Below, one piece after another: positions 35,551-40,724 of a DNA stretch of 64,000 bases. The notes under the pieces are model-generated. The model did no database searches. It had not been told where the DNA came from and saw nothing but the letters and a program-made list of their open reading frames with translations. The stretch is from Arthrobacter sp. FW306-2-2C-D06B. Its GTDB lineage: Bacteria > Actinomycetota > Actinomycetes > Actinomycetales > Micrococcaceae. The stretch lies in NCBI RefSeq assembly GCF_021789175.1, contig NZ_CP084560.1, positions 3,658,001 through 3,722,000 of the forward strand, written 5' to 3'. Position 1 is the stretch's first letter. The number at the start of each line of letters is the position of its first letter. Both the position numbers and the translations under genes were made by a program.

Positions 35551-36153
35551 TTGGAATCGCCCCACCCCGTTCGGATACTGACCGTTTGCACCGGCAACAT
35601 CTGCCGCTCCCCCGTAGCCGAACGTTTGCTCCAGGCAGGCCTGGACCAGGTTCTCCCCGGCGGCTTCGAAGTCCGCAGTGCCGGCACCCGCGCCATGGTG
35701 GGCAGCCCCATTCAACCGCTATCTGCTGACATCATCCGCACGTACGGCGGAACACCCGAAAACTTTGCCGCGCGCCAGCTCACCTCAAAGATCCTGAGGG
35801 AAGCGGACCTGGTGCTCACCATGGCGTCCCACCATCGCGGGGAAGTTCTCCAGCTGGATGCCTCCCTGCTCAAACGGACGTTCACCATCCGCGAGTTCGC
35901 GCGGATGGTGACGGCCCTTGAGGAACGAGGCGACGCGCCGCCGTCGGGCTCTGACTACACCCAACTATGGCGAGAACTGCCGGCGCGGGCATCGTCTGTG
36001 CGCCACCTCGTCCTGGCGGCAAATTCTTCGGACAACGACGTCGCGGACCCCTACAAACAGGGCGCCGAGGCGTACCTGCGGATGGAAGACGAGCTGGCTC
36101 CGGCCATCCTCAGGATCCTTCGCTACGCGCGGCTAAGCATGCAGCCGTCCTAA
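35551..36153 (+). CDS. Low-molecular-weight protein-tyrosine phosphatase
   Basis: The 200-residue protein has the P-loop VCTGNICRS with nucleophile C13 and R19, and the general-acid loop ADPYKQG with D166. It dephosphorylates phosphotyrosine in the cytoplasm. In EPS systems this enzyme reverses BY-kinase autophosphorylation; the kinase at 18199 is the likely partner. It is slightly longer than the usual 150-160 residues because of an insert around 115-150. It starts at TTG 35551 and is convergent with galU, the stops overlapping by 4 bases. Confidence 0.92.
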   Translation: MESPHPVRILTVCTGNICRSPVAERLLQAGLDQVLPGGFEVRSAGTRAMVGSPIQPLSADIIRTYGGTPENFAARQLTSKILREADLVLTMASHHRGEVLQLDASLLKRTFTIREFARMVTALEERGDAPPSGSDYTQLWRELPARASSVRHLVLAANSSDNDVADPYKQGAEAYLRMEDELAPAILRILRYARLSMQPS

Positions 36154-37040
36154 CCCAGGAATTCCTTCATCCAGGTTTTGAGATCTTCACCGAATTCGGC
36201 CCGCTCGGAGGCCAGCGTGATGACGGCCTTCAAGTAGCTGAGTTTGTCCCCGGTATCGTAGCGACGCCCGCGGAAGACGACCCCGTAAACGCCCGCGCCT
36301 TCGCCTCCGCCCTTGGCGAGGGTCTGGAGAGCGTCGGTCAGTTGGATCTCGCCGCCGCGCCCGGGCCCGGTCTCTTCGAGGACATCGAACACAGCCGGGT
36401 GCAGGACATAGCGTCCGATGACGGCCAAGTTTGATGGCGCTTCTTCAACGGAAGGCTTCTCCACAAGGCTGTTGACGCGGACGTAATCCTCCCCCACGAT
36501 GGGCGTGATATCGGCGCAGCCGTACGCGCTGATCTGCGACGGCTCCACTTCGATGAGGGCAATCACCGAGCCGCCGGTCTTCGCTTGAACGTCGATCATG
36601 GTTGACAGAAGCTGATCCCGCTCGTCAATCAGGTCGTCCCCCAAAAGCACGGCAAACGGTTCATCACCTACGTGCTGCTTGGCGCACAGCACGGCATGAC
36701 CCAAGCCCTTCGGTTCGCCCTGCCGCACATAGTGAATAGGCCCAAGCCCGGAGGCATGCTGCACGGCGTCCAAGCGGGCTTCGTCGCCTTTCAGCTCCAA
36801 AGTACGTTCGAGATCAGGTGCACGGTCGAAATGGTCTTCCAGCGAGCGCTTGTTGCGGCCCGTGATCATCAGCAAGTCGCTAAGCCCTGCCCTCACAGCC
36901 TCCTCAACCACGTACTGAATGGCCGGCTCATCTACCACCGGCAACATTTCCTTCGGCATCGCCTTGGTGGCAGGCAAGAAGCGCGTGCCCAATCCGGCGG
37001 CCGGAATAACTGCTTTACGAACTGATCTCCCCATAGACAT
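36150..37040 (-). CDS. galU: UTP-glucose-1-phosphate uridylyltransferase
   Basis: The 296-residue enzyme shows KAVIPAAGLGTRFLPATKAM, the nucleotide-binding motif, then KEMLPVVDEPAIQYVVEEAV, FAVLLGDDLIDERDQLLSTM and LVEKPSVEEAPSNLAVIGRY. It makes UDP-glucose from UTP and glucose-1-phosphate, the precursor for the UDP-glucose dehydrogenase encoded at 31231. ATG 37040 and 37034 are both possible starts. It ends at the right edge of the polysaccharide island on the strand opposite to ugd. Confidence 0.95.
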   Translation of the reverse strand: MSMGRSVRKAVIPAAGLGTRFLPATKAMPKEMLPVVDEPAIQYVVEEAVRAGLSDLLMITGRNKRSLEDHFDRAPDLERTLELKGDEARLDAVQHASGLGPIHYVRQGEPKGLGHAVLCAKQHVGDEPFAVLLGDDLIDERDQLLSTMIDVQAKTGGSVIALIEVEPSQISAYGCADITPIVGEDYVRVNSLVEKPSVEEAPSNLAVIGRYVLHPAVFDVLEETGPGRGGEIQLTDALQTLAKGGGEGAGVYGVVFRGRRYDTGDKLSYLKAVITLASERAEFGEDLKTWMKEFLG

Positions 37041-37586
37041 AGGGCAAATCCTACGAATGGATTATCAAAAACGCTAATCCCTGATGCAAGATTTCTGACT
37101 TTCCGGCCAAGAAGTCCTTAGCTCCGGGCCCTCAAAGCGTGGCCGTCAACAGGTAGGTGCGGAGATTGGTTTGCTGTCCGGTGTCCCTTGCGCCCGGTGA
37201 CCTGGGCTAGTCGACCGAAGTTTGACGCGGGCTGTCCAGCCTGGACCACTGTCGGCTCGCTCGAGCCCTTGGCCCGAAGGAACATGGAGGACGAACGCCG
37301 TCCGGTGGCAAGAACCTGACAGATCGCCGACGTCAGGATCGCGGCCGTGGCGCCTCTGCTGGCGGCGGCTTGGATGGGTGTGGATCCGTGGAAGATGTTC
37401 GGGCGCTGACTGCAGTCGGAAAGTCGCGGAAATTGCCGGAATTAGGCCCTGGATGCCATGCCAGACGAGCAGAGGAGATTGTAAGCATCATTATATTTGC
37501 CTGACCACACTATCATTGAACAAATTTCTGTTTTCTGCTACCTTCGGGGAACTCACAAAGACGTTTGGAATTTCGGGGGGAAATTC
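37041..37586 (+). other. Non-coding stretch, 546 bases
   Basis: No frame here combines a ribosome site with recognisable sequence; a 126-residue frame at 37222-37602 is Arg/Trp-rich and runs into the next gene, so it was set aside. The left part is GC-rich and the right part (about 37470-37580) is A/T-rich and probably carries the promoter of the secreted-protein cluster. Confidence 0.5.
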
Positions 37587-38105
37587 ATGCGCACATCAAT
37601 AAAAACAACCATTCTCGTCGGTGCAGTCTGCGTTACCGGCATCACACTTACCGCCGCGACGCTCAACGCTCCTCCGTCGATATCTGCAGCCTCAGACGTC
37701 GTTCCGGCTTTCTTATCGCGACAGGCGGAGTCTGATAAATTACCGGACACATTCATTGCCACTTTTGCGCCAACCGGCGCCGATCTCACAAACGCCCGGT
37801 TTCTTGGGGCCGGCCCGAACGCTCGATACTTCGCCGTCACTCGCGGTTCGGACAAAATTTGCATCGCAACCGTCGGGAAAGCTGCCGAGCCGCTCGGTTT
37901 GGCCTGTACCAACGTCAAGGGCTTCGAGGGCTATGGGCTGCGAGTCGGCAACGATGACCGTAGCGAACAGGCTTGGTTGATATCTCCACACGGCTCGGTC
38001 GGAAATACGCTGAAGAGCGCGGACGCCGTTGCGGCCACGAGCAAGGGCGGTCAATGGAAGCAGATTGCCCCCAGTCTCCTAGTACTGGGCCCGAGTAACC
38101 AATAG
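37587..38105 (+). CDS. Exported protein of unknown function
   Basis: From ATG 37587, behind GGGGGGAAA, the 172-residue protein has a signal peptide or anchor (TTILVGAVCVTGITLTAATL). A mature domain follows with RYFAVTRGSDKICIATVGK and LGLACTNVKGFEGYGLRVG. The two cysteines (in KICIAT and LACTN) are spaced as in a common actinobacterial family of exported hypothetical proteins and probably form a disulfide. It is the first of several small exported proteins in this cluster. No enzyme motif is seen. Confidence 0.7.
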   Translation: MRTSIKTTILVGAVCVTGITLTAATLNAPPSISAASDVVPAFLSRQAESDKLPDTFIATFAPTGADLTNARFLGAGPNARYFAVTRGSDKICIATVGKAAEPLGLACTNVKGFEGYGLRVGNDDRSEQAWLISPHGSVGNTLKSADAVAATSKGGQWKQIAPSLLVLGPSNQ

Positions 38106-38157
38106 ACGAGCGGTCAACGTTCAGCGCAAAATTGCGATCATAAATTTTGGGGGAAGC

Positions 38158-38526
38158 ATGAAAAACATTAAGCGAATTACCCTCGTTGTTCTTACAATCG
38201 TGTGCTCCTGGTTCCTATCAGCTCCACCGGCAAGTGCCTATGGAGCCGACACATGGGCGGCCCAGCCATACATGTGCAACCCGGGCACGTTCTGGGGCGG
38301 CAGCAGCTGGCTCTATTACGGCGTGGCCAAGGCTGAAACGAAAGAGGACGGCAACTTTTGTTGGAACGGAAACAACACCGTTTCCGCCGCCGTCCACGAT
38401 AACTATCGCAACGGATACAACTGGGCCGTTGGTCACAACGCAGTGGAAACGTACTACTCCACGCCGTATTACTCCACCTGGGGCGGCTTCCACTCGTGGG
38501 GCAACTCGGGCGCCCAGGTCACCTAA
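38158..38526 (+). CDS. Small secreted aromatic-rich protein, weakly lactococcin 972-like
   Basis: The 122-residue product starts at ATG 38158 behind GGGGGAAGC and has a typical Sec signal (RITLVVLTIVCSWFLSAPPA, cleaved after ASA at 27). The mature 95 residues are very rich in Trp, Tyr, Asn and Gly (GGSSWLYYGV, YYSTPYYSTWGGFHSWGN), with cysteines at 40 and 68. This composition, and a G-x-x-W-x-Y-G element near the start of the mature part, recall lactococcin 972-type bacteriocins, but the match is weak and no immunity ABC pair is next to it. It may be a toxin, a structural or a signalling protein. Confidence 0.65.
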   Translation: MKNIKRITLVVLTIVCSWFLSAPPASAYGADTWAAQPYMCNPGTFWGGSSWLYYGVAKAETKEDGNFCWNGNNTVSAAVHDNYRNGYNWAVGHNAVETYYSTPYYSTWGGFHSWGNSGAQVT

Positions 38527-38735
38527 TTCTGCGAGTGACTAACCGGTATTGCCGACAAACCATGCGTCGCCACCCTCTTGGGTTCACTGGCAGGGCCGGG
38601 ACCCCAAAGGCCCTAACTCTAGCGACCGCTGCTTACCCGGCTCTAAGCCCGGTTCGCGTTCACGTGCCGCGATCAGCGGGTAGTTGACGCTTCGGAAGGC
38701 GTTAGCAACAACATCGAAAAGAATGGACGAGCATC

Positions 38736-39026
38736 GTGGATCGTGATGAAAGCAAGGTTCCTCGCCGGCCCAGCACGAGAAGATCCTTCATGAAGGGGAT
38801 GGCAGGAACTCTCGGCGTGGGTGCGATTTCAGCAGCTGGATTGGCGTCAGCAGCCGGGACCGCATTCGCAGACCCAGCTCACCAGCATTGCGTCAGCACA
38901 GCACAAAAATTCATCGGAATGAGCTGCATAAACGGCGTATGGTGGGAGTATTACAAAGTGTATTGCACGGTTTGCCTCGGAAGTTGCGGGCCGAATCGTG
39001 AGATAAATACCTGTGTGCTCTGCTAG
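38736..39026 (+). CDS. Tat-exported cysteine-rich peptide precursor, unknown family
   Basis: The 96-residue precursor has a twin-arginine signal STRRSFMKGMAGTLGVGAIS (residues 13-32) with cleavage near AFA-DPA at 45-46. The mature peptide of about 51 residues contains seven cysteines (52, 64, 77, 80, 84, 93, 96) and a GVWWEYYKVYC core. Export of a folded, cysteine-dense peptide by Tat recalls the small subunit of methylamine dehydrogenase, and a MauE-like gene lies two genes downstream. However, the peptide is far shorter and no MauG/MauB/MauD gene is in the window. It starts at GTG 38736 with a modest ribosome site. Possibly a metal-binding, redox or antimicrobial peptide. Confidence 0.7.
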   Translation: MDRDESKVPRRPSTRRSFMKGMAGTLGVGAISAAGLASAAGTAFADPAHQHCVSTAQKFIGMSCINGVWWEYYKVYCTVCLGSCGPNREINTCVLC

Positions 39027-39076
39027 CTTTATACACGGCAACACGCTGAAATTAATCCACATTTGGTGAGGTTGAC

Positions 39077-39385
39077 ATGAAAAACAAAGTACTTCTTGAA
39101 TATGTAGGGGATTATCCTTCAGGGGAGTCTCCTGACCCGAGTAACAAGGGAATAATCAGCCTGGAGTTCGCACTCGAACATCATGGGGGGTATAGCTTTG
39201 ACATGGAACTACCAGATGGCAGTTTCATCCCTGTCTCCCTCGAGGAATTTCGCGGCAAGGATCCCAAAACTACGTTCATTGTCCTCGGAGTTGAATCAAT
39301 CCCCGATAGCCCCGAGGACTACGCGCGTTGGGAAGCCAGGGTCGTTGCCAAGCGCGGGCCGATTCGAAGAACACCGCTTAGGTAG
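39077..39385 (+). CDS. Small cytosolic protein linked to the Cys-rich peptide, unknown
   Basis: The 102-residue protein starts at ATG 39077 behind GGTGAGG. It has no signal peptide, no membrane span and no cysteine, and it is acidic in its first two thirds (LEYVGDYPSGESPDPSNKGI, MELPDGSFIPVSLEEFRGKD). It ends in a basic tail (VVAKRGPIRRTPLR). Only 3 bases separate its stop from the MauE-like gene, so the two are coupled, and it lies 50 bases after the peptide gene. It may be a chaperone or adaptor for the precursor. No family is recognised. Confidence 0.65.
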   Translation: MKNKVLLEYVGDYPSGESPDPSNKGIISLEFALEHHGGYSFDMELPDGSFIPVSLEEFRGKDPKTTFIVLGVESIPDSPEDYARWEARVVAKRGPIRRTPLR

Positions 39386-39388
39386 TCA

Positions 39389-39799
39389 ATGACCGTCCTG
39401 CGGATCGCGCTAACGGGATATTTGGCAGCGACGCTGCTGTTCCCCGCCATCCAAAAGTTCCGCGCCCGTGGGAGGCTCTCGTCCTACTATGCGGAGCTAT
39501 TCAACATGAATGAGCCTCGGGCTCGCATCGGGATCGTTGCTCTTTGTGCTGCCGAGGCCGTCCTCGCCGTCCTACTGGTGCTTCACGTACAGCCCATGAT
39601 CACAGGTGGTGCAGTGATCGCTCTCTTCCTTGGATTCATCGTCTTCCGGCTCCGACTGCTACGACGATTCAACGGCACCATAGCCTGTGGATGCAACGCT
39701 GAAACCGGAGCGACCACGCGGTCGGAAAGCCGCGGAGGTGTAGCAGGAGTAAGCCTGTTGGCGGTTTTAGCCTTCGCCTGGACCCTTGTAGCCATTTAG
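39389..39799 (+). CDS. MauE/DoxX-like redox-associated membrane protein
   Basis: The 136-residue protein has four hydrophobic spans (about 7-22, 46-66, 69-88 and 115-135). A cytosol- or outside-facing loop (LRLLRRFNGTIACGCNAETG) holds a C-x-C pair at the place where MauE proteins carry CxCF. Family members assist disulfide formation or maturation of exported cysteine-rich proteins, as in methylamine dehydrogenase biogenesis. Its position directly after the Tat-exported seven-cysteine peptide and a coupled small protein makes it the likely maturation factor of that peptide (inference). Confidence 0.72.
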   Translation: MTVLRIALTGYLAATLLFPAIQKFRARGRLSSYYAELFNMNEPRARIGIVALCAAEAVLAVLLVLHVQPMITGGAVIALFLGFIVFRLRLLRRFNGTIACGCNAETGATTRSESRGGVAGVSLLAVLAFAWTLVAI

Positions 39800-40021
39800 C
39801 CTACTGGCTGCCCCTTCGTGGGCGCTTCCTCATCGCGCCAGTTGTCTATTTACGCTCCCGGGCGGACCACGCCGACTGACAGTGAGGAGTCTGCGCACCA
39901 CTCAATTTGCTCAGATTTAGCACTCAATCCATACCCAAAGGTGGAAACAACTGCTTAGGATCAGCACGGTACCGGCGCCGATCCTAATTCAAAGAGGAAC
40001 GCACATCCGAAAGGCGGCCAC

Positions 40022-40241: not shown

Positions 40242-40724
40242 TCACGACGACGGACGGGCCTTGCGCACCGGGTGCTCGCTCAGGATGGACAGGCGGTTGA
40301 AGGCGTTGATGCCGATGCATGCCATGCACAGCACGCTGATCTGCTCGTCGCTGTAGACCTTCCGTGCACGGGAAAACAGCTCGGCGGTGGGACGGGCGCT
40401 GCTCATGCGCGTGATCTGTTCGGCCAGCTCAAGCGCCACCTGTTCGGCCTCGTCGAAGAGCCCCACCTCGCCATGCACCGACACCAGGGAAAGCCGCTGC
40501 TCGGTCTCTCCGTAGCCAATGGCGCGGCGGTGATGCAGATCCAGGCAGAACGCGCAGCCATTGATCTGCGAAGCCCGGTAGTTCAACAACTCGAGTGTGC
40601 GGCGCGGGATCCCGGTCCTGTCCGCCTCGGCAGTGACCTGACCCGCGTAGTCGGACAGTGCCTGATACAGCCCAGGCTGTTGCTTGTCCAGATAGCCGGC
40701 GAGCTTCGGGGTATTTTCACTCAT
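40242..40724 (-). CDS. AhpD-like alkylhydroperoxidase / carboxymuconolactone decarboxylase family protein
   Basis: The 160-residue protein has the AhpD core motif E-x11-C-x2-C-x3-H: E45, C57, C60 and H64 (NGCAFCLDLHHRRAIG). This is the thiol peroxidase site that reduces hydroperoxides in the cytoplasm. The surrounding helices (RTLELLNYRASQI, AEQVALELAEQITR) fit the CMD fold. It is a single-gene unit between the small exported-protein cluster and the LCP gene. Its physiological substrate and electron donor are unknown. Confidence 0.88.
   Translation of the reverse strand: MSENTPKLAGYLDKQQPGLYQALSDYAGQVTAEADRTGIPRRTLELLNYRASQINGCAFCLDLHHRRAIGYGETEQRLSLVSVHGEVGLFDEAEQVALELAEQITRMSSARPTAELFSRARKVYSDEQISVLCMACIGINAFNRLSILSEHPVRKARPSS

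Follow-up and report, generated by a model that had tools for sequence, protein, structure and literature searches.

MauA, the light chain of methylamine dehydrogenase, is an exported, cysteine-rich protein that is matured with MauE, and the light chain has a conserved tryptophan pair for its quinone cofactor. The disulfide role of MauE in this enzyme is described in passages of the decRiPPter study (PMC7794033). According to the same passages, three Streptomyces candidate families combine a mauE homologue with precursors of at least eight cysteines and lack other mau orthologues, and a role as ribosomally synthesized and post-translationally modified peptides (RiPPs) was proposed for them. 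Class I lasso peptide clusters encode the DoxX-family proteins SviE, MslE and AboE, and after knock-out of mslE the disulfide lasso peptide was still made, at a lower yield (passages of the review PMC9266682 and of PMC6409603). Laterosporulins and actifensins are described in part of PMC6989792 as defensin-like class IId bacteriocins. Here we analysed a window of 64,000 nucleotides, meaning the whole stretch of DNA under study, from Arthrobacter sp. FW306-2-2C-D06B (GCF_021789175.1, contig NZ_CP084560.1, 3,658,001-3,722,000). It contains an island of five genes, for which we use labels of our own: orf172, orf122, cysP, cyt102 and the mauE variant. We give about even chances to reading it as a mobile antagonism island of two modules, in which cysP encodes a disulfide peptide bacteriocin, the MauE variant is dedicated to this peptide and cyt102 provides immunity.

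The island resembles the decRiPPter families in having a mauE homologue, a cysteine-rich predicted precursor and, among the five island genes and two flank genes of the window that were scanned by profile, no other mau orthologue. The general idea of MauE acting beside cysteine-rich precursors is not new: an earlier sequence-only reading of this locus had suggested a possible new peptide-maturation system, but MauE with such precursors had already been proposed for the Streptomyces RiPP candidates (passages of PMC7794033). Those precursors differ in having at least eight cysteines and in coming from Streptomyces candidate families; neither a Tat (twin-arginine translocation) signal nor a cyt102-like partner is mentioned in the passages concerned. 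The SviE, MslE and AboE clusters are alike in that a small DoxX-type membrane protein is encoded beside a disulfide peptide. In the parts of the lasso peptide papers that describe them, these clusters add a thioredoxin-domain or DsbA-type partner and the lasso enzymes, none of which is among the five island genes. A Tat signal, a three-cysteine MauE without a thioredoxin neighbour, and a cyt102 partner with orphan forms were not found in our literature searches or in the passages cited here.

The seven-cysteine peptide and its homologues

Analysis of the open reading frames bore out the three co-directional genes (cysP, cyt102 and mauE) that the sequence-only reading had described, with 3 bases between cyt102 and mauE. 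The three frames behave as genes, since homologues exist and the dN/dS between the window and Arthrobacter sp. B2a2-09 (G044) was 0.32 for cysP, 0.13 for cyt102 and 0.13 for MauE. The predicted mature part of cysP has 51 residues with seven cysteines, spaced 11-12-2-3-8-2, and a WW pair, and the signal part is without cysteine. At an assumed cysteine frequency of 0.9%, at least seven cysteines in 51 residues would arise by chance with a probability of about 4e-7.

The arginine pair of the signal was invariant in all eight homologues, and an A-x-A site was found in each of them. Six cysteines were common to the eight, and the total number was always odd (seven in seven homologues, nine in one). 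The odd number of cysteines and the twin-arginine signal that had been read from the window held across the eight. An H-x-H-C motif at the mature N terminus was likewise invariant (8/8), despite identities down to 34-35%. The WW pair, which had been pointed out in the window, was present in only four of the eight; it is not conserved, and it found no support as a cofactor site. No Pfam family matched cysP at E ≤ 1 and nothing in NCBIfam exceeded its cut-off, and the expectation that no known family covers the peptide was confirmed to that extent. We also considered cysP as a methylamine dehydrogenase light chain and rejected this, on the same profile results and on the occurrence of WW in half of the homologues.

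The TIGR01409 Tat-signal profile was best placed on residues 14-39 of cysP with 12.3 bits, below its cut-off of 16.7. The twin-arginine pair and the A-x-A site in cysP, and a TatC in the genome (E 3.1e-59), are the features of a Tat substrate, and export by this route is predicted. The model of mature cysP has three strands, with block pLDDT values of 77-92 over residues 51-96, and showed weak similarity to laterosporulin 3 and 10; among the solved structures no laterosporulin matched cysP in sequence at E ≤ 10. As in the laterosporulins and actifensins of PMC6989792, in the parts that describe them, the product would be an exported cysteine-rich peptide of similar size, and its six conserved cysteines could give three disulfides. 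It differs from them in the Tat-type signal and in the odd number of cysteines, and the actifensin C6 spacing motif given there does not fit the spacing of cysP.

From these features we infer the following course of events. cysP would be translated with its twin-arginine signal, and the dedicated MauE variant, with this peptide as its substrate, would help to oxidise the conserved cysteines. Tat would export the peptide, and a signal peptidase would cut after A-x-A, leaving about 51 residues as a compact peptide with three strands. The folded peptide would act on neighbouring actinobacteria, and cyt102 would protect the producer from inside the cell.

The invariant H-x-H-C motif, conserved even where identity is low, and the odd number of cysteines would also fit an exported metal- or cofactor-binding protein. 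In such a protein H-x-H-C and the unpaired cysteine would bind a metal, loading in the cytosol would account for the use of Tat, and MauE would set the redox state of the cysteines. The canonical target of MauE is itself a subunit of an exported cofactor enzyme, as passages of PMC7794033 state in part. However, the odd cysteine has no fixed place (alignment column 100 in five of the eight homologues, column 69 in three), no enzyme or transporter partner is found among the five genes, and the orphan forms of cyt102 are left unexplained. We regard this alternative as unlikely. The homologous peptide of Psychromicrobium silvestre (P0002) is annotated in public databases as 'anaerobic selenocysteine-containing dehydrogenase'; this name is probably wrong, and the Tat signal is perhaps its source.

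The partner gene cyt102 with and without the peptide

For cyt102, too, no Pfam family was found at E ≤ 1 and nothing over the cut-off in NCBIfam. The window's protein has no cysteine and no apparent signal. In all four peptide-bearing genomes that could be read the neighbour genes were adjacent to the peptide, with cyt102 following cysP, and the association proposed from the window alone is therefore conserved.

Genome G064 retains parts of the island. Two gaps interrupt them: the first takes out orf122 and most of cysP, the second all of mauE past its first bases. Between the gaps cyt102 is open, and so is orf172. The dN/dS of cyt102 was 0.23 between the window and G064 and 0.08 between G044 and G064; the corresponding values for orf172 were 0.18 and 0.16. 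A metagenome protein (P0004) apparently starts with the same scrap of cysP as G064, fused to cyt102. Genome G072 has a cyt102 homologue, and the other four island genes were not found in the 10.4 kb read around it. Near relatives of cyt102 amounted to 31 member sequences (single-sequence search) versus 7 for the cysP profile in the same protein database. Family-wide searches, made on a partly different draw of genomes, found cyt102 in 3 of 390 and cysP in 3 of 395, G044 not being among the cysP matches; the three genomes were the same for both genes, so these searches add no orphan cyt102.

A small neighbouring protein that occurs even where the toxin is absent, as expected for bacteriocin immunity, is thus seen in two genomes only (G064 and G072). 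The simplest reading of G064 is that the toxin was lost and the immunity gene was kept. Alternatively, G064 may be decaying, and its cyt102 may simply not yet be gone.

Dedicated cytosolic chaperones are common for Tat substrates, and the sequence-only reading had assigned to the cytosolic protein the task of guarding or folding the precursor. On that view the locus serves to mature a peptide: cyt102 would act as chaperone or guard for the Tat precursor and MauE would make the disulfides, and the product need not be a toxin. The place of cyt102 directly before mauE in the window and after cysP in every peptide-bearing genome read, and its lack of cysteines and of an apparent signal, agree with this. 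The conservation beside cysP stands, but G064 has cyt102 in the absence of an intact cysP and mauE, and in G072 it is the only island gene in the stretch read. This fits immunity better; a cysP chaperone would serve no purpose in G064. We consider the chaperone system possible but not probable, and favour immunity for cyt102.

A MauE variant with a third cysteine

Of the proteins encoded by cysP, cyt102 and mauE, only MauE matched a family over its cut-off (PF07291, E 2.4e-11, 44.5 bits, cut-off 27), and it belongs to that family. Like its relatives it has four spans, seen as four hydrophobic segments, and a C-x-C, here C-G-C, between the third and the fourth. For comparison, we used 20 fetched loci (L073-L092), which are the best 20 of 31 further matches among 59 genomes of the order. 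All 20 carried PxxE (second span) and CxCF (third loop), and C-x-C is therefore an ordinary MauE signature and not itself a novelty. In the island proteins (four of four) the corresponding motifs were CxxE and CGC, the latter with N, N, D or S in the place of F. As a cysteine replaces the proline of PxxE, these proteins have an additional, third cysteine (C53) in their second span. The MauE-like, four-span protein with C-x-C that had been recognised from the window was thus confirmed, but its unusual feature is the third cysteine and not the C-x-C loop.

A CPxC frame of at least 120 codons lay within 1.5 kb, searched on the MauE strand only, in 11 of the 20 comparison loci. Nine of these frames were scanned with profiles and all nine matched Thioredoxin_4 and DSBA. 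Ordinary Micrococcales MauE thus often adjoins a DsbA-like thioredoxin-domain protein, and the two look like a common actinobacterial redox pair. The island MauE differs from these relatives here as well: no thioredoxin-type CPxC frame was found within 1.5 kb of it, on both strands, at any of the four loci.

The first and third loops of the island MauE proteins have 4-6 lysines and arginines, versus 0-1 elsewhere, and three of the four proteins have an arginine at position 5, within the first hydrophobic segment. Ordinary MauE shows the same charge asymmetry in a weaker form. By simple hydropathy and charge prediction, which is not calibrated on a MauE of known topology, the C-G-C loop would lie on the cytosolic side. 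This counts against oxidation of the exported peptide outside, and the proposal that MauE forms the disulfides of the peptide is to that degree qualified. One version that would accommodate it is that the three-cysteine MauE (C53 and C100-x-C102) stands in for the usual MauE/DsbA-like pair, with oxidation of the peptide at the cytosolic face of the membrane. The folded, disulfide-bonded toxin would then pass to Tat, and cyt102 would neutralise it inside the cell until export. We consider this specific version rather improbable.

Composition, mobility and rarity of the island

All five genes were also found together in Arthrobacter sp. B2a2-09 (G044), Pseudarthrobacter chlorophenolicus Mor30.16 (G037) and Psychromicrobium silvestre DSM 102047 (G320), each time at another genomic site than in the window. 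The gene order was identical in the window and G044. In G037 the five genes are present with the pair of orf172 and orf122 inverted. In G320 an internal stop interrupts orf172 and both of its orf122 copies are disrupted, with cysP, cyt102 and MauE intact. The two disrupted copies lie in tandem (L036 6400-7260), which suggests fast turnover of this part of the island. The pair of orf172 and orf122 also co-occurs in G079, G103, G108 and G177, all without a clear cysP match; in G103 orf122 is split over two frames. Because the pair occurs in genomes without a clear peptide match and is inverted in G037 and disrupted in G320, we divide the island into two modules, A (orf172, orf122) and B (cysP, cyt102, mauE). 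The unit of three genes in the sequence-only reading is real and conserved, but the two upstream genes of the same island had been overlooked.

The island is mobile, as is evident from an empty site in three relatives and from the different sites in G044, G037 and G320. The relatives (L100, L101 and L102) have no island gene between the same galU-like and decarboxylase-like flanks, which are separated by 82-83 bases in L100 and L102 and by about 480 bases in L101. In blastn against them the window matched up to 37095-37133 and the match resumed at 39875 (L101) or 40255 (L100 and L102). The island remains of G064 are at the window's site. In G037 the island is flanked by an IS110-type and an ISL3-type transposase gene, one per side. 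The GC content is 55.6% over 37500-39800 versus 59.8% for the whole window.

Table 1. Features of the island and its flanks, in positions of the window.
Feature	Position	Strand	Description	Basis
Island	37131..39874	no strand	approximate extent	blastn edges against relatives without the island
orf172	37587..38105	+	module A; N-terminal hydrophobic stretch and presumed exported domain	homologues; open in G064
orf122	38158..38526	+	module A; apparent Sec-type signal (by eye), two Cys in the mature part	
cysP	38736..39026	+	Tat-type precursor of the seven-cysteine peptide, 96 aa, GTG start	
cysP signal	38736-38870	+	signal part	
cysP mature part	38871-39023	+	predicted mature part	
cyt102	39077..39385	+	102 aa, cysteine-free, cytosolic; candidate immunity protein	
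mauE variant	39389..39799	+	136 aa, four predicted spans	PF07291
C53 codon	39545..39547	+	replaces P of the usual PxxE	4/4 island MauE
C100-G-C102 codons	39686..39694	+	MauE C-x-C motif, usual following F absent	
Flank	36150-37040	-	galU-like nucleotidyltransferase gene	family checked by profile
Flank	40242-40724	-	carboxymuconolactone-decarboxylase-like gene	family checked by profile

The island is also rare. A pattern-then-tblastn scan of 84,980 species genomes, which may omit the window's own genome, gave three loci (G044, G037 and G320). Among 198 genomes of the genus a clear cysP (E 1.5e-12 or better) was found in three (G000, G044 and G037), the MauE variant (E ≤ 1e-5) in exactly these three, and cyt102 in five; homologues of orf172 were found in 15 and of orf122 in eight. 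The cysP profile matched five clusters with 7 member sequences among 5.8 billion proteins.

Module A looks like a second, independent exported protein (orf122) with its partner (orf172). For orf122 of the window and G037 no Pfam match was listed at E ≤ 10, PF09683 (Lactococcin 972) included, the HMMER filters dropping most matches above about 0.1. We regard orf122 as a candidate second toxin and orf172 as its candidate partner or immunity protein, the latter having been kept in G064, where orf122 was lost. The orf172 domain may represent a sensing or immunity family for orf122-like proteins. Long orf172 homologues with an N-terminal extension adjoin a sigma factor gene in G090, G103, G129, G131, G171, G183 and G060; Pfam confirmed the sigma genes in L056, L059 and L064, three of those beside long orf172 forms. 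In G103 and G108 a long orf172 form, a short form and orf122 stand in a row.

With such sigma factor genes beside long orf172 homologues in relatives, module A could be part of a sensing circuit, and there is no direct sign of toxicity for the island. Both points would suit a signalling or adhesion peptide that is spread by a mobile island and is not antibacterial. However, no receptor-like gene is among the five, and G064 lost the exported peptide and kept the partner, and we find this explanation very unlikely.

If the bacteriocin reading is true, the locus would add a rare family of peptide toxins that Arthrobacter-type actinobacteria export by an unusual route. It would also offer a minimal, testable substrate for MauE/DoxX proteins, consisting of one 51-residue peptide and one membrane protein, and G064 would be a natural relative whose kept genes predict immunity proteins. 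Should the three-cysteine MauE act on the cytosolic face as outlined, it would be a dedicated disulfide catalyst before Tat export, and the peptide would belong to a new class of Tat-secreted disulfide bacteriocins.
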